Source: Alphaproteobacteria bacterium (lineage in GTDB: Bacteria; Pseudomonadota; Alphaproteobacteria; Reyranellales; Reyranellaceae). From it: a DNA stretch of 64,000 bases. Under the pieces are notes generated by a model. That model had not been told where the DNA came from, ran no database searches, and was given only the letters and a program-made list of their open reading frames with translations. Within the stretch, counting starts at the first letter, position 1. The number at the start of each line of letters is the position of its first letter. Positions 29,938 through 44,784 of this stretch are shown in pieces. The translations under genes and the position numbers were made by a program. Where the stretch lies: NCBI GenBank assembly GCA_017307275.1, contig JAFKFK010000018.1, forward strand, positions 124,001 to 188,000. Reading direction: 5' to 3'.

Positions 29938-30942
29938 TTACTGCGGCGATACGATCAGTAGATAGGGCGTGATCTCGACGACAGACGCCTGCTGCGTCCG
30001 TGCCACCGCCTGCAAGGCCTCGACCGGATGACGCAGATCGAAGACGCCGGTGATGCGGCGGTCGCCCAGCGAGCGATCGCGCAGCACGATCATACCGGAA
30101 TGATGCCGGTCCAGTTCCGCAACGACCTCGCCCAGTGTCGCGCCATCGACGATCAGGCGGCGCTCGCGCCACGATGCGACGTCTTCGGGCGCGATCTCTG
30201 ACTTCGCAATCTGTTTGCCCTCCCCGCTCACTCTGAGCCGCTCACCGCGCGTCAGCGTCGCCGCCAGTCGCGTACCGCGATCGACCCGGACCTCGACGGT
30301 TCCGGACTGTACGCCGACCGTCACACTGTCGCCGTATGACCGAACGTCGAAAGCCGTTCCCGTGACGGTGACGCTTACGTCGCCGGCCGTGACGACGAAG
30401 GGCCGGTCTTTGGCCGGCACGACCTCAAAGAAGGCTTGTCCGGCAAGCAGTACGATCTCCCGCCGCCCCGCCTCGTATCGGACGGCAACGGCGCTCTCGG
30501 CGTCGAGATGAACACTCGTGCCGTCTTCCAGAGTGAGCGTGCGCAGCTCGGCGACGCTCGTCATATGGTCGGCCTGGAGGCGAAGCTGGACCACGGGAAA
30601 GAGGTAGAATGCCAGGCAGGCGACAAGAGCGAACCCGGCAAGCCCCATGGCACGACGCACGCGCCCGGCGCGCCGAACTGGAATCGTGGGAAGCTCGACA
30701 GGACCAATCGAAGGAAGGGCAGCCGATACACGCCAGACCCGCTCGACGCTGCGATAGGCGCGCCGATGCGATTCGCTGGCGGACAACCAGGCCTCGAGGC
30801 CGGCGCGCACGACCGCATCGCCCGGCGACGCCTGCAGGCGCAGCAGCCAGTCCGCGGCCTCGTCGCGTAGTGAGTCTCCGTTGTCCGCTGCTGGGTCCAC
30901 CGATCTCTCTTTTGCCTCGTACGAACAGACTGGCGTCGCCAT
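29938..30942 (-). CDS. FecR-family anti-sigma regulator
   Basis: A 334-residue inner-membrane protein. The N-terminal cytoplasmic part (EAADWLLRLQASPGD, WLSASESHRRAYRSVERVW) is the DUF4880 anti-sigma domain; a membrane segment follows (GLAGFALVACLAFYLFPVVQL, about residues 95-115); the periplasmic FecR domain includes LTLEDGTSVHLDAESAV and FEVVPAKDRPFVV. The C-terminal end resembles a secretin-like short domain that meets the receptor's STN domain. Gene order sigma, fecR, receptor on the minus strand is classic. It lies 26 bases after the sigma gene. Confidence 0.92.
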   Translation of the reverse strand: MATPVCSYEAKERSVDPAADNGDSLRDEAADWLLRLQASPGDAVVRAGLEAWLSASESHRRAYRSVERVWRVSAALPSIGPVELPTIPVRRAGRVRRAMGLAGFALVACLAFYLFPVVQLRLQADHMTSVAELRTLTLEDGTSVHLDAESAVAVRYEAGRREIVLLAGQAFFEVVPAKDRPFVVTAGDVSVTVTGTAFDVRSYGDSVTVGVQSGTVEVRVDRGTRLAATLTRGERLRVSGEGKQIAKSEIAPEDVASWRERRLIVDGATLGEVVAELDRHHSGMIVLRDRSLGDRRITGVFDLRHPVEALQAVARTQQASVVEITPYLLIVSPQ

Positions 30943-30968
30943 CGACTTTTAAGGGCCGCTCGAAAAAA

Positions 30969-31472
30969 TCAATGCTCGGAACGATCGAGCCGCTTGGCGG
31001 CGTGAACGATGGCTTCCTTCACGAGCTGATGGGCGCGCACGACGGAAACCCCGAGATGGTTGGCAATCTGCTGCAGGGTCTGCCCTTCCAGTCGATACAT
31101 CCGGAAGGCGGTTTGCGTGCGCTCCGGCAACTCGACCAGCGCCTCCTGGAGCAGGCGCAGCTCGTCCCGAAACAACAGCACATGCTCGGCCGAGGGGGCG
31201 TCGTGAGGTACCGCCTCCAGCGTATCGGAGACGGCCCCATCAGGCCGATCCGTCGAGGAGCGGCGCGCCCAATCGAGCGCCAGATTGCGCACGATGCGAT
31301 ACAGATAACCAACGGGGTGGCTGATTTCCTGGCTGACCGTGCCGAGGCGGAGATAGGCCTCCTGAACGACGTCCTCGGCCCCTGCCCGGTCCCGAACGAT
31401 GCCGTTGGCGTAATTCACCAGGGCTCTACGATGCTCCAGGTAAAGCGCAAGCATCTGGTCCGCCGGGGCCAC
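30969..31472 (-). CDS. ECF sigma factor, FecI-like
   Basis: A 167-residue sigma-70-family ECF factor. Region 2 reads YANGIVRDRAGAEDVVQEAYLRL (shortly after the start) and region 4 includes LPERTQTAFRMYRLEG and QQIANHLGVSVVRAHQLV. It should direct RNA polymerase to the receptor promoter when the receptor is occupied. The start is GTG 31472 with TAGGAG upstream; ATG 31454 is an alternative. A Fur-like palindrome covers the promoter region, so low iron probably switches it on. Confidence 0.92.
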   Translation of the reverse strand: MAPADQMLALYLEHRRALVNYANGIVRDRAGAEDVVQEAYLRLGTVSQEISHPVGYLYRIVRNLALDWARRSSTDRPDGAVSDTLEAVPHDAPSAEHVLLFRDELRLLQEALVELPERTQTAFRMYRLEGQTLQQIANHLGVSVVRAHQLVKEAIVHAAKRLDRSEH

Positions 31473-36905: not shown

Positions 36906-36907
36906 GT

Positions 36908-36937
36908 CCCTCCGCTCCCGGATCGGGAAGCGGAGGG
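36908..36937. terminator. Bidirectional terminator hairpin between convergent genes
   Basis: CCCTCCGCT and AGCGGAGGG form nine-base arms around CCCGGATCGGG-like inner pairing, three bases after the EF-hand gene stop and ahead of the end of the convergent binding-protein gene. Only a short T-rich tail (ATTTCT) follows on the plus strand, so efficiency is uncertain. Confidence 0.6.
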
Positions 36938-36946
36938 ATTTCTGGA

Positions 36947-38167
36947 TCAGGTGCTTTCGGCGTGCATGACGTCGCCGAACAGATGCCAGGTATCGCCCTG
37001 GAAGCGCTGAAGCTGGACCGCCTGGATTGGATAGAAATCCGTCGGACTGGTGCTGACGGTGATGCCCGGCAGCGCCAGCGGCAGCTTGAGCTTTTGGTGG
37101 TTGGCCGCCTGGCGCATGAGATTCTCGCGCGTCAGGTTGTCACCGCACTTCTTCAGCGTCTCGTGCATCAGGAACGAGACGGCATAGGCAAAGACGTTCG
37201 ACGCATCGGTCACGTTGCCCTGCGGATTGGACTTGGCCATCCAGGCCCGCCACGCCTTCATGTCGGCATTGTCGTCCCACTGCTTGTCGGTGGGGTCCAT
37301 CAGGTAGGCCGCGGTGAGGATGCCCTGGCTGTTCTCGAAGCCTGCCGGCTTCATGGTCGAAGCGACCGAGGCCGACACGTTGTTGAGATACTGCGCCGGC
37401 TTCCAGCCGATATCGGCCACCTTGCGGATCGCCTGCGCCGCGAACTTCGGCGTCGCGATGTTGAAGAAGACGTTGGCGCCGGAGTCCTTGAGCTGGATCA
37501 CCTGACTGTCGACCGTCGGGTCCGTCACCTCGTAGGTGACGTGCTTGACGACCTTGTTGGCATCCTTGCCCAAACCTTCCCTGAAGCCTTCCCAGTAGTC
37601 CTTGCCGTAATCGTCGTTCTGCATCAGCACGCCGATCTTCGGATCCTTGACGTTGGCCAGGATGTGCTTGGCATAGATCACGCCCTCGGTGTGGTAGTCG
37701 GGCTGGAAGCCCATCGTCCACGGGAACTCCTTGGGCTTGCCCCACTTCGACGCGCCGGTGGCGACGAACAGCATCGGCACCTTCTTCTGGTTCATGTATT
37801 TGTGAATCGCCGTATTGGTCGGCGTGCCAAGCGTATTGAAGGTGCAGAGAACCTTCTCCTGCTCGACCAGCTCGCGGATCATCTCGACGGTCTTGGCTGG
37901 ATTGTAGCCGTCGTCGCGAGTGATGAACTTGACCATGCGGCCGTTGATGCCACCGGCTTCGTTCACGCTCTTCCAATAGGCCTCGATCGTCTTGCCGATC
38001 ACGCCATAGGCCGAGGCCGGCCCGCTATAGGGATTGGTGTGACCGATCTTGATCTCCTTGTCGGTCGCTCCGTCGTCGTATTTCTTCTGGGCAAACGCTA
38101 CGCCTGACGCGGACAAAACGGCGGCAGTGGACACCCCGCCGAGGAAAGTACGCCTGCTGGTCTTCAA
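36947..38167 (-). CDS. Branched-chain-type ABC substrate-binding protein, paralogue 1
   Basis: A 406-residue periplasmic binding protein (Peripla_BP_6 type) with signal peptide MKTSRRTFLGGVSTAAVLSASGVAFA, whose RRTFLGG suggests Tat export. The mature part begins KKYDDGATDKEIKIGHTNPYSGP and has VPMLFVATGASKWGKPKEFP and LMQNDDYGKDYWEGF. It starts at TTG after a near-ideal AAGGAGG. It is the last of three tandem paralogues, most like paralogue 3. It probably feeds the livHMGF permease encoded upstream. Ligands of this subgroup include branched-chain amino acids, amides and aromatic acids. Confidence 0.9.
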   Translation of the reverse strand: MKTSRRTFLGGVSTAAVLSASGVAFAQKKYDDGATDKEIKIGHTNPYSGPASAYGVIGKTIEAYWKSVNEAGGINGRMVKFITRDDGYNPAKTVEMIRELVEQEKVLCTFNTLGTPTNTAIHKYMNQKKVPMLFVATGASKWGKPKEFPWTMGFQPDYHTEGVIYAKHILANVKDPKIGVLMQNDDYGKDYWEGFREGLGKDANKVVKHVTYEVTDPTVDSQVIQLKDSGANVFFNIATPKFAAQAIRKVADIGWKPAQYLNNVSASVASTMKPAGFENSQGILTAAYLMDPTDKQWDDNADMKAWRAWMAKSNPQGNVTDASNVFAYAVSFLMHETLKKCGDNLTRENLMRQAANHQKLKLPLALPGITVSTSPTDFYPIQAVQLQRFQGDTWHLFGDVMHAEST

Positions 38168-38315
38168 CGTTGCCTCCTTGGTTAAACGCGCTTCAACTCC
38201 CCGATCTGTGTTTTGTGCAGAACAGGGTTGCGCGAAACCCGAGGCTTGAAAAGTAAAAAACTCGCCAGGCGGCTACGACCATTCGTGATGGTGCAGCGCA
38301 AAAGGAAAGAAAAAG

Positions 38316-38339
38316 GCCGCCAACTGGCGCTGGCGGCCC
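38316..38339 (-). terminator. Rho-independent terminator after binding-protein paralogue 2
   Basis: GGCCGCCA and TGGCGGCC form perfect eight-base arms around an eight-base loop; on the minus strand a T-rich tract (TTTTTCTTTCC) follows. It ends transcripts of paralogue 2 in the 196-base gap before paralogue 1, which therefore needs its own promoter or read-through. Confidence 0.8.
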
Positions 38340-38363
38340 TTAACTCGCGCTGGATATCAGCTT

Positions 38364-39578
38364 TCAGGCACTCTCGGCGTGCAGCACGTCGCCGAACAGA
38401 TCCCAGCTCTCCCCCTTGAAACGAGCGAGCCGCATGGACTGGACGGGATAGAAATCCGTGGCGCTGGTGTTGACGGTGATCCCTGGCAGCAGCAGCGGTA
38501 CACGCAGATTCCGATGATTGGCGGCCTGGCGCATCAGATTCTCGCGCGTGAGCTCGTCGCCACACTTCTTCAGTGTCTCGTGCATCAGCGACGTGACCGC
38601 ATAGGCAAAGACGTAGTTGGCGTCGGCTTGCACAGCGCCCGGCATCCACCTGCTCATCCAGGCACGCCACATCTTCAACTCGGGATCGTCAGCCCACTGC
38701 GGATCGGTCGGGTCTTTGAGATACTGCGCGGTGATGGTGCCCTGCCCGTTCTCCAGCCCGGCAGGCTTCATCACGGTTCCGACCGACGCCGAGACGATGT
38801 TGAGGTAATGCGCGGGCTTCCAGCCGAGGTCGGCCGCCTTGCGGATCGCCTGCGCCGCCGCCTTGGGCGTCGTGATGTTGAAGAAGACATTGGCGCCAGA
38901 GGCGGCAAGCTGGATCACCTGGCTATCGACCGTAGGATCGGCGACTTCGTAGGTCACGCGCTTCACGACCTTGCCCACCGCATCGGCGCCGAGGCCCTGC
39001 TTGAAGCCCTCCCAGTAGTCCTTTCCGTAGTCGTCGTTCTGCATCAGGACGGCGATGCGCGGTTCCTTGACGTTGGCCAGGATGTGGCGTGCGTAGATCG
39101 CCCCCTCGGTGTGGTAGTCGGGCTGGAAGCCCATCGTCCACGGGAACTCTTTAGGTTTGCCCCACTTCGACGCAGCCGAGGCGACGTAAAGCTGCGGCAC
39201 CTTCTTTTGATTGAGATATTTGTGGATCGCCGTATTGCTGGGCGTTCCGAGCGTGTCGAACAGGCAAAGCACCTTTTCCTGTTCGACGAGCTGGCGTACC
39301 AGTTCCACGGTCTTCGCGGGCGAATAGCCATCGTCGAGAGAGATGAAACGGACCTTGCGGCCGTTGATGCCTCCCGCGTCGTTCACGCTCTTCCAGTAAG
39401 CGTCGATGCACTTGCCGATGATGCCGAGGGAAGACGCAGGGCCGCTGTAGGGACCGGTGTGACCGATCTTGATTTCGGTATCGCTGGCGCCGTCATCATA
39501 TTTCTTCTGGCCGGCCGCTCCCGAAGCAAGGAGCAACACCGCGGCCGATACGCCGCCTACCAAACCACGCCTGCGCAT
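38364..39578 (-). CDS. Branched-chain-type ABC substrate-binding protein, paralogue 2
   Basis: A 404-residue relative of paralogues 1 and 3, with signal peptide MRRRGLVGGVSAAVLLLASGAAG. The mature part reads KKYDDGASDTEIKIGHTGPYSGP, VPQLYVASAASKWGKPKEFP and LMQNDDYGKDYWEGF. I chose ATG 39578 (GGGGAAC upstream); a TTG at 39599 would add seven residues. It differs from its sisters at several pocket-like positions (VASAASK in place of VATGASK, QLAASGANVFFNI in place of QLKDSGANVFFNI), so it may bind a different ligand. It is flanked by terminators on both sides. Confidence 0.9.
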   Translation of the reverse strand: MRRRGLVGGVSAAVLLLASGAAGQKKYDDGASDTEIKIGHTGPYSGPASSLGIIGKCIDAYWKSVNDAGGINGRKVRFISLDDGYSPAKTVELVRQLVEQEKVLCLFDTLGTPSNTAIHKYLNQKKVPQLYVASAASKWGKPKEFPWTMGFQPDYHTEGAIYARHILANVKEPRIAVLMQNDDYGKDYWEGFKQGLGADAVGKVVKRVTYEVADPTVDSQVIQLAASGANVFFNITTPKAAAQAIRKAADLGWKPAHYLNIVSASVGTVMKPAGLENGQGTITAQYLKDPTDPQWADDPELKMWRAWMSRWMPGAVQADANYVFAYAVTSLMHETLKKCGDELTRENLMRQAANHRNLRVPLLLPGITVNTSATDFYPVQSMRLARFKGESWDLFGDVLHAESA

Positions 39579-39640
39579 ACGCTTGTTCCCCGTCGTCAAA
39601 AGCCGGGCGCGTGCTTGCCTGCGGAATAGGGCAAAAAAGA

Positions 39641-39664
39641 GAAGGCCGCCTTTCGGCGGCCTTC
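39641..39664 (-). terminator. Rho-independent terminator after binding-protein paralogue 3
   Basis: GAAGGCCGCC and GGCGGCCTTC form ten-base perfect arms around TTTC; on the minus strand TCTTTTTTGCC follows. This is a textbook intrinsic terminator placed between paralogues 3 and 2. Confidence 0.85.
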
Positions 39665-39686
39665 CCGGTATTGATCTTGGCTGGTT

Positions 39687-40907
39687 TCAGGAACCTTCGG
39701 CCGACATGACGTCGCCGAACAGATCCCAGCTCTCGCCCTTGAAGCGGGCAAGCTGCACCGACTGGATCGGGTAGAAATCCGTCGGGCTGGTGTTGATGGT
39801 GATGCCGGGCAGCAGCAGCGGCAGCTTGTACTTCTGGAAGTTGGCTGCCTGGCGCATGACGTTTTCACGCGTCAGCTCGTCGCCACACTTCTTCAGCGTC
39901 TCGTGCATCAACGAAGCGACGGCATACCCGAACACATGGTTGGCGTCGGCCTTGTTGGAGCCGGGCATCCACTTGTCCATCCAGGCCACCCAGGCCTTGA
40001 AGTCGTCGGTGTTCTCCCACTGCTTGTCGGTGGGGTCCTTGAGGTACTGCGCCGTGATGATGCCCTGGCTGTTTTCCAGTCCGGCCGGCTTCATCACCGA
40101 GCCGACCGATGCCGACACGTTGTTGAGGTACTGCACCGGCTTCCAGCCGATATCGGCCGCCTTGCGGATCGCCTGGGCAGCAGCCTTCGGCGTCGCGATG
40201 TTGAAGAAGACGTTGGCGCCCGAGTCCTTCAGCTGGATCACCTGGCTGTCGACCGTCGGGTCCGTCACTTCGAAGGTGACGTGCTTGACGACCTTGCCGG
40301 CCTCCTTGCCAAGGCCTTCCTTGAAGCCTTCCCAGTAGTCCTTGCCGTAATCGTCGTTCTGCATCAGCACGCCGATCTTCGCATCCTTCACATTCGCCAG
40401 AATGTGCTTGGCGTAGACCACGCCCTCAGTGTGGTAGTCGGGCTGGAAGCCCATCGTCCACGGGTACTCCTTGGGCTTGCCCCACTTCGAAGCACCGGTC
40501 GCTACATAGAGCTGCGGCACCTTCTTCTGGTTCATGTACCTGTGAATGGCGGTGTTGTTCGCCGTGCCCAGCGTATTGAAGAGGCACAACACCTTCTCTT
40601 GCTCGACGAGCTGGCGAGTGAGCTCGACGATCTTCGCTGGATTGTAACCGTCGTCGAGCGTGATGAACTTGATCTTGCGGCCCTTGACGCCGCCGGCCTC
40701 GTTCACGCTCTTCCAATAGGCTTCGAGAGTCTTGCCGATCTGTCCATAGGACGAAGCCGGTCCGCTGTACGGGCCGGTGTGGCCGATCTTGATTTCCGCG
40801 TCGGTCGCGCCATCGGAATACTTCTTCTGGGCGAATGCGGCAGTCGAGCCAGAGAACAACGCCAGCGCGGACGCACCACCCACAAAACCACGTCTACTCG
40901 TCTTCAC
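39687..40907 (-). CDS. Branched-chain-type ABC substrate-binding protein, paralogue 3
   Basis: A 406-residue periplasmic binding protein. The frame is open to an ATG at 40931, but the Shine-Dalgarno AAAGGGAGG lies inside that extension and is followed by GTG 40907, which gives MKTSRRGFVGGASALALFSG, the same opening and exact length as paralogue 1. The mature protein starts KKYSDGATDAEIKIGHTGPYSGP. It is nearest the permease genes, 189 bases after the livM-type stop, and ends in a strong terminator. Probably the original partner of the transporter. Confidence 0.9.
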   Translation of the reverse strand: MKTSRRGFVGGASALALFSGSTAAFAQKKYSDGATDAEIKIGHTGPYSGPASSYGQIGKTLEAYWKSVNEAGGVKGRKIKFITLDDGYNPAKIVELTRQLVEQEKVLCLFNTLGTANNTAIHRYMNQKKVPQLYVATGASKWGKPKEYPWTMGFQPDYHTEGVVYAKHILANVKDAKIGVLMQNDDYGKDYWEGFKEGLGKEAGKVVKHVTFEVTDPTVDSQVIQLKDSGANVFFNIATPKAAAQAIRKAADIGWKPVQYLNNVSASVGSVMKPAGLENSQGIITAQYLKDPTDKQWENTDDFKAWVAWMDKWMPGSNKADANHVFGYAVASLMHETLKKCGDELTRENVMRQAANFQKYKLPLLLPGITINTSPTDFYPIQSVQLARFKGESWDLFGDVMSAEGS

Positions 40908-41050
40908 GTTTATAGCCTCCCTTTTATTCATAGGCTGGGAACGATGTTCGCTCGAAATATTGGCGAATTAAAGAGGCTTCGATGGCATGCGACGCCGCGT
41001 CTGGTGGGAAGGGAGTCTGCCTCACTTGCCCGCGATTCACGCAGGTCGCC

Positions 41051-41096: not shown

Positions 41097-42101
41097 CTAG
41101 CGGGCGCCCCTGATCTTGCGCCATGCCATGAAGAGACCACCGGCAATTCCCATCGGCATCAGGTAGATAATGGCGATCAAGAGGACGCCGAACACGGTGT
41201 AGGCCGAGAGGTCAAACGGCAGGCCGAGATCGTTCTTCACGAACTGCGACAATGCCTGAGCGGAGTTGTCGACCAGCACGTAGAAGATGCCGCCGATCAC
41301 CGAACCAGTCAGCGAACCGATACCGCCCACCACCAGACCGATCAGGAACTTGATCGACAGGAAGATGTTGAAGCTGTCGGGTGCCACGAAGGCGATGGCC
41401 GAGGCCGAGAGCGCACCGGCGATGCCCGTGTAGGCGGCGCTGATGCCGAAGGTGACCGTCTTGTAGAGGGCGGTATCGATGCCCATCGTGTCAGCTGCCA
41501 TGTACTGGTCGCGGATCGCCATCATGGCGCGGCCGCTGCGGCTGTTCAGCATGTTGGCCGCCGCCCAGAAGAGGATGACCATCACGACCAGGCAGAAGTA
41601 GTAGAGCCACTGGTCTTCCGTCAGCGGCAGGCCGAACGGCACCTCGGGCTTCATCAGCACGATGCCCTGCACGCCGCCGGTCAGGCCTTCGAGCCATTTG
41701 TATTTCAGGATCTGCGGGACCGCCAAAGCGAGCGCAAAGGTTGCGAGCGCAAGGTAGTGGCCCTCGAGCTTCAACGCCGGCAGGCCGAACAGGTAGCCCA
41801 CGATGAAGCAGACGATCGCGGCCGCCGGGATCGTGGCCCAATAGGGCACATTCAATTGATCCATCAACACGGCGGCGGTGTAGGCACCCACCGCGTAGAA
41901 CGCGCCGTGGCCCAGCGAGAACTGGCCGTTGAACCCGGTCAGCAGGTTCAGCCCCAGCACCGCGATCGAGGCGATGATCATGGTGCTGACCAGGAACAGC
42001 CGATAGTCCGAGATCGCATCTGGAAAGATCGGCTTCAGAAGCGGCACCACGAACGCCAAGACGACGATGCCGAGGACCCACTTTTTCGACGTGCTGGCCA
42101 T
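41097..42101 (-). CDS. livM: Branched-chain amino acid-type ABC permease, LivM type
   Basis: A 334-residue inner-membrane permease with about ten hydrophobic segments. Landmarks are LGLNLLTGFNGQFSLGHGAFYAVGAYTAA near residues 48-76 and VGGIGSLTGSVIGGIFYVL in the C-terminal half. It begins three bases after the LivH-type stop and is the last gene of the livG-livF-livH-livM order operon. It pairs with LivH to form the channel. Confidence 0.92.
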   Translation of the reverse strand: MASTSKKWVLGIVVLAFVVPLLKPIFPDAISDYRLFLVSTMIIASIAVLGLNLLTGFNGQFSLGHGAFYAVGAYTAAVLMDQLNVPYWATIPAAAIVCFIVGYLFGLPALKLEGHYLALATFALALAVPQILKYKWLEGLTGGVQGIVLMKPEVPFGLPLTEDQWLYYFCLVVMVILFWAAANMLNSRSGRAMMAIRDQYMAADTMGIDTALYKTVTFGISAAYTGIAGALSASAIAFVAPDSFNIFLSIKFLIGLVVGGIGSLTGSVIGGIFYVLVDNSAQALSQFVKNDLGLPFDLSAYTVFGVLLIAIIYLMPMGIAGGLFMAWRKIRGAR

Positions 42102-42104
42102 GTC

Positions 42105-43010
42105 TCAGACTCTCTTCACGACGACGCGGCCGAACAGGCCGGCGGGTCTCACAGTCAACACGAAGATCACGATGATCAGGGCCACGGTGAGCTTTTCGCC
42201 GTTGCCGATGATGTAGATGCCGGTCGCCTTCTCGATCTGGTTACCGGCGTAGGCCACCATGTTTTCGAGCACGCCGACGATGAAGCCGCCCGCGACGGCG
42301 CCCGCCGGGTTCGAGATGCCGCCGACCAGGGCGCTGGCGAAGGCATAGAGCAGGATGCCGGCCATCATGTTGGGATCGAGGTAGACGATATGCGCCACCA
42401 TGATGCCTGCGACCGCTCCGATCGAGGACGCAAGGCCCCACCCCAGCGCCAGCATCCAGTCGACGCGCACGCCGACCAGCCGCGCCATCTGCGGGTTCTG
42501 CGCTGCCGCCCGCATCGCCAATCCGAGCGGCGTGTAGCGGAAGAAGACGAACAGGAGCCCCAGCACGATCAGCGTGACCAGCACGACACCCAACTGGTGC
42601 GGCCCGATCACGCCGGCGATGCCGAAGCTCGACTTCGGAAACGGCGAGGGATACTCCTTGATCAGGTAGCTCCAGATGGCGCCAGCGACTGAATTGAAGA
42701 TCGCCAGCAGGCCAATGAACACCACGATGATCGAAAGCACCGGCGCACTATGCAGCGGTCTTAGGATCAACCGTTCGATCACCACCCCCATGACGAAGGA
42801 GAGCGCCACGGCCAGGATGAAAGCCGCCCAGAAGCTCAAGCCCCAGGTCATGAGCTGCCAGCTCAGGTAGGTCGAGAACATCGCCATCTCGCCCTGGGCG
42901 AAATTGATGTGGTCCGTCGACACGTAGATCATCACCAGCGCCAGGGCGACGCAGGCATAGATGGCGCCGTTGGCCAGGCCCGAGGCGATCTGCTGGAGGA
43001 ACTGTTCCAT
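42105..43010 (-). CDS. livH: Branched-chain amino acid-type ABC permease, LivH type
   Basis: A 301-residue permease with about eight hydrophobic segments. The N-terminal LANGAIYACVALALVMIY and NFAQGEMAMFSTYLSW are LivH hallmarks, as are NPQMARLVGVRVDWMLALGW and GGISNPAGAVAGGFIVGVLEN. ATG 43010 lies ten bases after the LivF-type stop. Together with LivM it forms the membrane part of the transporter. Confidence 0.93.
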   Translation of the reverse strand: MEQFLQQIASGLANGAIYACVALALVMIYVSTDHINFAQGEMAMFSTYLSWQLMTWGLSFWAAFILAVALSFVMGVVIERLILRPLHSAPVLSIIVVFIGLLAIFNSVAGAIWSYLIKEYPSPFPKSSFGIAGVIGPHQLGVVLVTLIVLGLLFVFFRYTPLGLAMRAAAQNPQMARLVGVRVDWMLALGWGLASSIGAVAGIMVAHIVYLDPNMMAGILLYAFASALVGGISNPAGAVAGGFIVGVLENMVAYAGNQIEKATGIYIIGNGEKLTVALIIVIFVLTVRPAGLFGRVVVKRV

Positions 43011-43020
43011 TGTTTGCGCC

Positions 43021-43734
43021 TCAGTAGCCGAGATAGGACTTACGGACGTTCTCGTCGTTCTTCACGACGTCGGACGGACCGGACATCACGACCTTGCCGG
43101 TCTCGAGAACGTAGGCGTGGGTGGCGAGGTCGAGCGCCAGGGCGGCATTCTGCTCGACCAGCAGGATGCTCACCTTCTCCTCCTCGTTGATGCGCCGCAG
43201 GATGCGGAAGATTTCCTGCACGATCAGCGGCGCCAGGCCGAATGACGGTTCGTCGAGCAGCATCAGCCGGGGCTTCAGCATCAGCGCGCGGGCAATCGCC
43301 AGCATCTGCTGCTCACCACCCGACAGCGTGCCGGCCTGTTGCTGGATGCGCTCCTTGAGGCGAGGAAAGTAGGCAAAGACACGATCGAGCTCGTCCTTGA
43401 CCCCCTGCTTGTCGCGCCGCGTATAGGCAGCGATTCGCAAATTCTCGTCGACCGTGAGCGTTGTGAAGGTGCCGCGGCCCTCGGGCACATGGGCGATCCG
43501 CTGACGCACGATTTCCTCGGTCGCCATGCCGCGGATGTTCTTGCCATCGAAGCGGATTGTGCCGTCGGTGCGCACCATGTTGCAGATGGCGCGGAGGGTC
43601 GTCGTCTTGCCGGCACCGTTCGCGCCCAGCAGGGTGGTGATGCCGCCCGTCGGGATATCGAACCCGACATCGTAGAGAGACTGGGTCTGGCCGTAGAAGG
43701 CCTTCAGCCCACTGACTTCAAGCAGTGCCGCCAT
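43021..43734 (-). CDS. livF: Branched-chain amino acid-type ABC ATPase, LivF type
   Basis: A 237-residue ATPase with Walker A GANGAGKTT, signature LSGGEQQMLAIARALM and Walker B LMLLDEPSFGLAP, the last being the usual LivF wording. It begins directly after the LivG-type stop codon (no gap). Its ATP hydrolysis, with LivG, drives the permease. Confidence 0.94.
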   Translation of the reverse strand: MAALLEVSGLKAFYGQTQSLYDVGFDIPTGGITTLLGANGAGKTTTLRAICNMVRTDGTIRFDGKNIRGMATEEIVRQRIAHVPEGRGTFTTLTVDENLRIAAYTRRDKQGVKDELDRVFAYFPRLKERIQQQAGTLSGGEQQMLAIARALMLKPRLMLLDEPSFGLAPLIVQEIFRILRRINEEEKVSILLVEQNAALALDLATHAYVLETGKVVMSGPSDVVKNDENVRKSYLGY

Positions 43735-44523
43735 TTACGCAGTCCCCAGATAGGCGCGGATCACTTCGGGATCGCGCTGCACTTCCGCCGGCGTGCCGTC
43801 GGCGATCTTCTTGCCGAAGTCGATGGCGACCACCTTGTCGGACACCGACATGACGAGGCTCATGTGATGCTCGACCAACAGCACGGTGACATGCTGGGTT
43901 TCGCGCACCCGCTTGATCTGCCCCTTCAACACCTCGATCTCGTCGTGGTTCAGGCCGGCCGCCGGCTCGTCCAGCAGCAGCAGCTTGGGGCTGGAGGCCA
44001 GCGCGCGCGCCAGCTCGACACGCTTGCGGATGGGGAATGGCAACGGCCCGGCCATCGCTGTCGTGAACGGCAGCAGGTCCATGAATTCGATCAACTCCAT
44101 GGCCCGCTTGGTAATCCGCTCCTCCTCGCCCTTGACCTTGGGCAGGCGCAGCGCGTTCTCGAAGAAGGAAGTGGAACTGACGGAGTGACAACCGACTTTC
44201 ACGTTGTCGAGAACGGTCATCTTGTCGAACAGCGCCACGTTCTGGAACGTGCGGCCGATCCCGACATGAGGGATGTCGTGGCGTGGGCGCTTCAAAATCG
44301 ACTGCCCCTCGAAGAGGACGTCGCCGCTGTGCGGCGTATAGAGACGACTAAGGCAATTGAAGAGCGTCGTCTTGCCCGCCCCGTTGGGGCCGATCAGACC
44401 GGCGATCTGGCCGGGAAAAACGTCAAAACTGACGCCGTCGAGGGCCACGATTCCCCCGAAGCGGACGGAGACGTCACGGACGCTCAAAAGCGCCGAGCCG
44501 CGAGATGAGGACGGTGCTGCCAT
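43735..44523 (-). CDS. livG: Branched-chain amino acid-type ABC ATPase, LivG type
   Basis: A 262-residue ATPase with Walker A GPNGAGKTTLFNCL, HVGIGRTFQNVALFDKMTVLDNV, Walker B LLLLDEPAAGLN, and the LivG-type C-terminal AEVQRDPEVIRAYLG. The start is uncertain: ATG 44523 gives the usual length, while ATG 44559 would add 12 residues; neither has a strong Shine-Dalgarno. It heads the liv operon, whose promoter should lie in the 261-base gap shared with the divergent EF-hand gene. Confidence 0.92.
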   Translation of the reverse strand: MAAPSSSRGSALLSVRDVSVRFGGIVALDGVSFDVFPGQIAGLIGPNGAGKTTLFNCLSRLYTPHSGDVLFEGQSILKRPRHDIPHVGIGRTFQNVALFDKMTVLDNVKVGCHSVSSTSFFENALRLPKVKGEEERITKRAMELIEFMDLLPFTTAMAGPLPFPIRKRVELARALASSPKLLLLDEPAAGLNHDEIEVLKGQIKRVRETQHVTVLLVEHHMSLVMSVSDKVVAIDFGKKIADGTPAEVQRDPEVIRAYLGTA

Positions 44524-44784
44524 GATTATGCCGGTTTCGACAGTCGGCACAAAACACATGCCAACGTGCCGAAATTACCCTTGCCTCCCAAGTACTTGCG
44601 ACCCTTCTTCGGAGTCATCTCGATGATTCACGATGGCGTATCCCAATGTGGGACGCAACTCAAATGGCGCGACGCCATGCTTTGGGCGTGATTGCGCCGC
44701 AGGATACCGCCGCTCTGCGGACATTGACAGCGAACGCATTGCAACCGATACGAAACCTCCCCTCCCAAAGCGGGTCTACCGCCG

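Follow-up and report, generated by a model that had tools for sequence, protein, structure and literature searches.

A row of three tandem genes for binding proteins (SBPs) behind one permease set in the window (the whole stretch of DNA analysed, 64,000 nucleotides) is probably a HAAT-type array in which many SBPs serve one importer, with 5′ modules fixed by position in the row, bodies that have moved between positions, separate transcription units, and a ligand of SBP2 that differs from the others. Under this reading, transcription of the SBP genes would be mostly in individual units, a single LivHMGF-like importer would be fed by all SBPs, and homologous recombination between the copies would give rise to body exchanges, gains and losses; SBP2 would bind a ligand different from that of SBP1 and SBP3. 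The initial annotation of this DNA was accurate in what it observed, and its interpretation gained partial support: for separate units from comparison with relatives, and, to a moderate degree, for a changed pocket.

Organization of the transporter locus

The genes were found on the minus strand in the order livG, livF, livH, livM, SBP1, SBP2, SBP3. A complete HAAT-type set (two permeases, two ATPases and an SBP) is contained in this one cluster, and the permease set said to precede the binding proteins does lie upstream of them on the same strand. The features are as follows:

43735..44559, minus strand: LivG-like ATPase (ABC_tran and BCA_ABC_TP_C; 265 bits against the LivG cut-off of 362)
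43021..43734, minus strand: LivF-like ATPase (ABC_tran; 245.5 bits against the LivF cut-off of 441)
42105..43010, minus strand: LivH-like permease (BPD_transp_2; 87.4 bits against the LivH cut-off of 379)
41097..42101, minus strand: LivM-like permease (BPD_transp_2; 122.9 bits against the LivM cut-off of 366)
39687-40907, minus strand: SBP1, body clade J1, GTG start, 406 aa
38364-39578, minus strand: SBP2, body clade H2, ATG start, 404 aa
38168..38247, minus strand: last-position (T-type) upstream block and RBS of SBP3, conserved with the T-type upstreams of other body clades
36947-38167, minus strand: SBP3, body clade E3, TTG start, 406 aa

The three tandem binding proteins thus have the predicted lengths of 404-406 residues, and all belong to Peripla_BP_6 (Pfam PF13458; 190.3, 188 and 168.6 bits against a gathering score of 31.7). 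Alternative starts exist for SBP1 (an in-frame ATG upstream at 40931, giving 414 aa) and SBP2 (an upstream TTG, giving 411 aa). The description of their cores as near-identical was too strong. Identity to SBP1 is 77% for SBP2 and 80% for SBP3, with 81 and 71 of the 379 mature positions differing, respectively, and near-identity is confined to parts such as residues 140-200.

The host, described as a soil and water bacterium, has a genome of 5.3 Mb in 70 contigs (92% complete) with 34 Peripla_BP_6 matches. The best other relative of LivM in it is 44% identical, and a LivM search of the contigs returned no second close LivM. This, together with adjacency, suggests that all SBPs of the array would dock on the one permease. 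Seven proteins of the genome, SBP1 counted, exceed 50% identity to SBP1 (100, 80, 78, 67, 65, 53 and 52%). The last four are encoded elsewhere (C50:17194-18402, C10:57513-58733, C25:29622-30815 and C30:180203-181366, in that order), and as the genome LivM search listed nothing close to these four, they may be orphans served by the importer of the window. In the 18-kb stretches around the two closest orphans, no relative of LivM or LivH was found; one of the two held weak ATPase matches (26-30%), and their neighbours gave no hint of a substrate. Elsewhere in the window (29938-31472, minus strand), a FecR-like protein is encoded beside a sigma-70-family factor of ECF size, resembling a FecI/FecR pair.

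The array in relatives

We compared 71 loci, namely the window and 70 others from Reyranella, Enhydrobacter, Vineibacter and related MAGs. Both LivM and the downstream marker were present in 46 of them, which were taken as complete; eight were partial, and 17 lacked flanking marker genes. The number of SBP copies in the complete loci was one in 11, two in 13, three in 6, four in 12, five in 2 and six in 2, where one of the twelve four-copy loci (L074) has two intact copies and a broken one counted as two pieces. Besides the window, 34 of the 45 other complete loci carry at least two SBPs beside one permease set. Several of the relatives are isolates, with three copies in R. massiliensis, five in R. 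soli, two in R. aquatilis, three in E. aerosaccus and six in Vineibacter. Assembly collapse is an unlikely source of this variation because even the closest copies within a genome (153 pairs) are only 87% identical in DNA. The single-copy loci carry a J1, D, B or E3 body.

The surroundings vary far less. All 46 complete loci have an EF-hand gene, 44 have a GOR-like reductase, 39 have DAHP synthase and 32 have glmS, where some neighbours fall beyond the end of the contig or of the fetched stretch. The locus recurs at a fixed site throughout Reyranella and its kin, with a variable number of SBPs. Traces of contraction or decay of the array are seen as a 44-residue C-terminal SBP remnant (L043:9944-10250) and as the broken copy of L074 (6310-7670). 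Gaps of 0.7-2.1 kb also occur in or beside the row (L039:12545-13410, L041:8963-9868, L084:7938-9998, L066:11221-11930); for these four loci and L095, a search of the gaps within or beside the row detected no SBP remnant at E 1e-3. The search of plasmids gave 21 records at E 1e-50, all below 60% identity.

Hairpins and transcription units

Each SBP gene of the window is followed by its own hairpin, as the initial annotation had stated, and those after SBP1 and SBP2 are intrinsic terminators:

39639..39666, minus strand: intrinsic terminator after SBP1 (12-bp stem, TTTTTT tail; -26.2 kcal/mol, z -4.2)
38312..38341, minus strand: intrinsic terminator after SBP2 (13-bp stem, T-rich tail; -32.6 kcal/mol, z -5.0)
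36907..36938, minus strand: hairpin after SBP3, between the convergent SBP3 and EF-hand genes (-27.0 kcal/mol, z -5.3)

The third hairpin is strong but has no T-run on the minus strand. The terminator after SBP1 is kept in the three nearest relatives. A loose terminator scan over the 10-kb region gave 10 sites where shuffles gave 7.0 (sd 3.1), and as a whole is not telling against chance; the two sites in the SBP spacers have its longest stems. Under a stricter rule (a stem of at least six pairs and a T-rich tail within 110 nt of the gene), applied to the window and its relatives, terminators followed 84 of the 123 intact SBP copies, compared with 1.7 in shuffled spacers, and 39 copies had none. 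Internal copies (53 of 77; 0.8 in shuffles) and last copies (31 of 46; 0.9 in shuffles) both had them, and coding controls gave 0. Since hairpins follow 84 of 123 copies where about two would be expected, separate SBP transcription units look like the norm across the relatives.

The stems are alike, with GGCCGCC or GGCGGCC in 74 of the 84 array terminators. In the genome of the window, AAGGCCGCC-N3-10-GGCGGCCTT occurs once, after SBP1, and GGCCGCC-N3-14-GGCGGCC occurs 21 times, compared with 8 for the control. On these counts, the array hairpin is not in common use as a terminator in this genome, and gene and terminator look inherited as one unit. Rfam returned six matches up to E 5, none of them over the gathering score; the best, BjrC68 (23.7 of 39 bits), lies over the SBP2 terminator. 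In L042, L044-L046, L048, L049, L060, L062 and L070 we noticed, by eye, a terminator-like hairpin of the AAAGTCGCCGG..GGCGGCCTTCTTT type before the first SBP, so in such loci SBP1 too may be a separate unit.

The hairpins could instead act as 3′-end stabilisers or attenuators in one read-through transcript, giving graded SBP levels and not separate units. All the genes are collinear, the spacers measure only about 108 nt (SBP1-SBP2) and 196 nt (SBP2-SBP3), with scant promoter room before SBP2, and the sigma-70 promoter scan gave 0 matches where 2.2 were expected by chance. Yet T-rich tails recur after the stems across relatives, and the conserved T-type upstream block of the last gene sits downstream of a terminator; we give read-through a real chance of being correct, though one clearly short of even. 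The earlier proposal of separately tuned units gains support from comparison: terminator-like hairpins are found after most copies across relatives, and upstream blocks and start codons are conserved by place in the row; the promoter scan came back empty.

Age and divergence of the copies

In a tree of 154 proteins, each SBP of the window grouped with a counterpart in each of the three nearest relatives, L039, L040 and L041 (starred supports of 99, 100 and 99). As each thus has orthologues there, the phylogeny places the duplications before the window species and those of L039, L040 and L041, and a recent duplication of the window genes is ruled out. The check that had been suggested, a phylogeny to time the duplications, accordingly returned old paralogues, with an orthologous clade for each window gene. 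DNA identity between the window and these relatives is 0.89-0.92 for SBP1, 0.84-0.89 for SBP2 and 0.90-0.92 for SBP3; SBP2, whose orthologues have the lowest identity, is the fastest changing of the three. Its clade stands on a long branch (0.32), and matches to SBP2 at E <= 1e-235 were present in 4 of the 75 genomes of the family, its own included.

Gene conversion, which was to be tested alongside, is not general among the copies. Across the 153 within-genome pairs, the longest identical run exceeded both cross-genome controls in 40 and fell below both in 39. Single long identical runs within the conserved core (154 nt in L050, 104 in L095 and 101 in L051) may reflect local conversion.

Ligand pocket

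Fourteen pocket sites of LivJ were mapped purely by sequence alignment with E. coli LivJ and LivK. As far as the accessible text of a docking study goes (PMC6983066), nine of the 14 LivJ sites are named there, plus Ala103 and Phe276. SBP1 and SBP3 are the same at all 14 mapped sites and at the equivalents of Ala103 and Phe276. SBP2 departs at four pocket-mapped sites (Y54L, T137S, G138A and N263I), and does so in all four members of its clade, the window included. Three of these sites do not vary at all among the 131 array copies outside this clade, and N263 is kept in 130 of them.

Simple enrichment of SBP1/SBP2 differences in the pocket was not significant (4 of 14 sites compared with 81 of 379, P 0.35). 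When only conserved sites were considered (210, of which 12 lie in the pocket), 4 of the 12 clade-specific changes of SBP2 fell in the pocket (P 0.0024, with the 14-site list, compiled ahead of the docking study); with the published LivJ contacts (9 or 11) alone, two changes (Y54L and G138A) fell in eight sites (P 0.069). The claim that the second paralogue differs at likely pocket positions thus receives moderate support from these alignments. A wider substrate range is plausible for SBP2 on account of its pocket changes; SBP1 and SBP3 share all mapped sites and for this reason may bind the same or similar ligands. We must also note that the SBP1 and SBP3 clades have fixed differences at positions 314, 319, 323 and 327; as these surround the residue aligned with Phe276, a second-shell difference between the two may exist.

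The agreement of SBP1 and SBP3 at the 14 mapped sites and the two further published ones would also be expected if the copies mainly served dosage, as redundant genes of one specificity for SBPs needed in excess over the permease, and single-copy loci with a J1, D, B or E3 body exist. We consider this account somewhat unlikely as a whole, given that the paralogues are old and have diverged by 20-23%, that the four changes of SBP2 affect sites conserved in other clades, and that the upstream blocks differ by position.

Fold and candidate substrates

The assignment to HAAT-type (hydrophobic amino acid/aromatic) ABC importers is firm; binding of Leu, Ile or Val is a candidate role. The label LivHMGF, given to the transporter earlier, holds as family homology and not at the level of the NCBIfam LIV models (LivF, LivG, LivH, LivM and PRK15404), whose cut-offs no component reaches; the SBPs score at most 59.4 of 477. 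SBP1, the one protein modelled, gave an AlphaFold2 model with pLDDT 86.9 and pTM 0.85. In the structure search, this model matched 3lkb_A with a VIA Z of 38.3 (364 aligned, rmsd 2.6), as well as binding proteins for amino acids, aromatic acids and fatty acids (15-22% identity). The ligand residues of LivJ are only partly kept in the array. At the position of LivJ Ser79 every classified array copy has Gly, and at that of Glu226, which has a role in binding the amino group, nearly all have Val.

An ordinary branched-chain amino acid (LIV) system would fit the families, which are those of LivHMGF and LivJ/K, and the fold, which matches valine- and leucine-bound SBPs. However, all NCBIfam LIV models stay below cut-off, both LivJ residues are replaced as described, and aromatic-acid and fatty-acid SBPs match about equally well, which makes an ordinary LIV system a rather unlikely description.

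Position-bound 5′ modules and exchanged bodies

The upstream regions sort into types by place in the row: first, middle and last. Slot classes were scored from seeds that we chose, and the groups were named once the first tree had been seen; the calls are uncertain for the deep genomes, some copies, and the first gene of the window, L039 and L040. Body clades were read by us off the 154-protein tree. With uncertain calls included, and with L058_1, scored otherwise, placed by hand in the first-type set for these counts and the 23-row tests below, the start codon was ATG in 24 of 26 first-type genes, GTG or ATG in 41 of 43 middle genes, and TTG in 38 of 45 last-type genes. The different start codon of each SBP (GTG, ATG, TTG), which had been pointed out for the window, is thus a conserved property of position in the row.

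The bodies do not follow the same division. Clade E3, that of SBP3, carries a first-type module in 9 genomes (one call uncertain) and a last-type module in 11; clade D carries a first-type module in 2 and a last-type module in 16. Over the first 40 alignment codons, nucleotide identity of E3-first genes is 0.72 to clade-B-first genes and 0.61 to E3-last genes, and over columns 60-100 the order is reversed (0.79 and 0.85, respectively). The changeover from module to body falls within about residues 22-56, where the signal peptide ends or shortly beyond it. The core (columns 120-200) no longer carries the clade signal.

Separate 5′ and C-terminal trees were built from 64 of the 154 rows, covering body clades B, D, E3 and G and excluding the remaining clades, the orphan SBPs and the deep genomes (L073, L081, L083, L088 and L095). 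In the tree of upstream region plus signal peptide, the 23 first-type rows formed one branch (starred support 99), a single E3 clade was rejected (dlnL 131.6; upstream alone, p 3e-8), and so was a single D clade (p 0.0012). Without L058_1, the first-type set was not one branch, yet a single branch was not rejected (p 0.203). Signal peptides alone (114 rows) also grouped the 23 first-type rows (starred support 95), and there an E3 clade was not rejected (p 0.069). In the C-terminal body, from codon 230, the E3 rows grouped on a single branch (unstarred support 91), and a clade of the 22 first-type rows was rejected (dlnL 77, p 0.018; LG+G4 without mixture). Judged from these trees, the 5′ module (upstream block, start codon and signal peptide) belongs to the position in the row, and the mature protein has another phylogeny.

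As the isolate E. aerosaccus has an E3-first gene and E3-last genes are found in R. massiliensis and R. soli, also isolates, MAGs are not the sole basis of the result. Within the family, the phylogenies show exchange of bodies between positions; independent exchanges were few, about two or more and not 20. In the own lineage of the window, such exchange is possible, and the last-type E3 genes as one 5′ clade were not rejected there (p 0.078). That the 5′ likeness by position arose from position-specific selection or 5′-end conversion, with bodies that never moved, is quite improbable: the trees give no direction of exchange and 5′ conversion would produce equal discordance, but the likeness runs at the DNA level through upstream block and signal peptide, and deletion fusions of first and last genes would explain the single-gene E3-first loci such as L072.

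A two-codon ORF (ATG-NNN-TAA/TGA) was observed 27-36 nt upstream of first-position SBPs (L047, L064, L056, L078 and others). It is carried by 18 of the 22 first-type upstreams and by none of the 113 others, its middle codon varies (GCG, GAG, GTG, ATC, ATG), and it may be a leader or minigene; the three SBP upstreams of the window do not have it.

Building on the preferred reading of moved bodies, we tentatively suggest, with less than even confidence, that the row consists of fixed expression slots (first, middle and last) that take recombined bodies, every slot bringing a separate leader, start codon and signal peptide, and the first slot perhaps being under the conserved two-codon leader ORF. 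If so, the specificity of the importer would be re-wired with regulation unchanged. The diet of an importer can be widened by changing its binding proteins, and the pairing of a new specificity with regulation is rarely visible. The 46 complete loci at one chromosomal site form a natural series of one to six genes, and because 5′ parts and bodies can be told apart in them, this pairing is testable here.

Comparison with known systems

In E. coli (NC_000913), LivJ and LivK, which are of the same fold family as the SBPs of the window, likewise use one LivHMGF set; unlike in the window, livJ and livK are separated by panZ, livK stands ahead of the permease genes, and the ligand residues differ.

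Borrelia burgdorferi has three tandem chromosomal binding proteins, oppA1-oppA2-oppA3, with one Opp importer, as in the window; available excerpts describe own promoters, mono-, bi- and tricistronic transcripts, and differing pockets (PMC5736914, PMC7822543). In contrast to the window, Opp takes up peptides, belongs to another family and has two heterodimeric permeases, and those excerpts report neither position-fixed 5′ modules with exchanged bodies nor a range of one to six copies.

Several SBPs per importer are also found in R. palustris where, according to the consulted portion of the report, 9 of the 72 ABC clusters have two SBPs and 1 has three, and in one cluster the two SBPs differ in their fatty/dicarboxylic acid profiles, which is proposed to give that cluster a wider range (PMC3223731). 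The solved SBPs of R. palustris show about 20% identity, and that portion does not describe array dynamics.

The staphylococcal esaG arrays, in the part of the source seen, are tandem paralogues that expand, shrink and recombine via shared blocks (PMC9484751). They consist of immunity genes and not of transporter parts, and the window array is different in that its joint divides a position-bound 5′ module from the body.

Our literature search of titles and abstracts found no paper on this array or on slot/body exchange in SBPs. Importers with multiple SBPs are already known, and the array of the window is a dynamic, modular version of them; what is new here is that position-bound 5′ modules are separable from exchanged SBP bodies.
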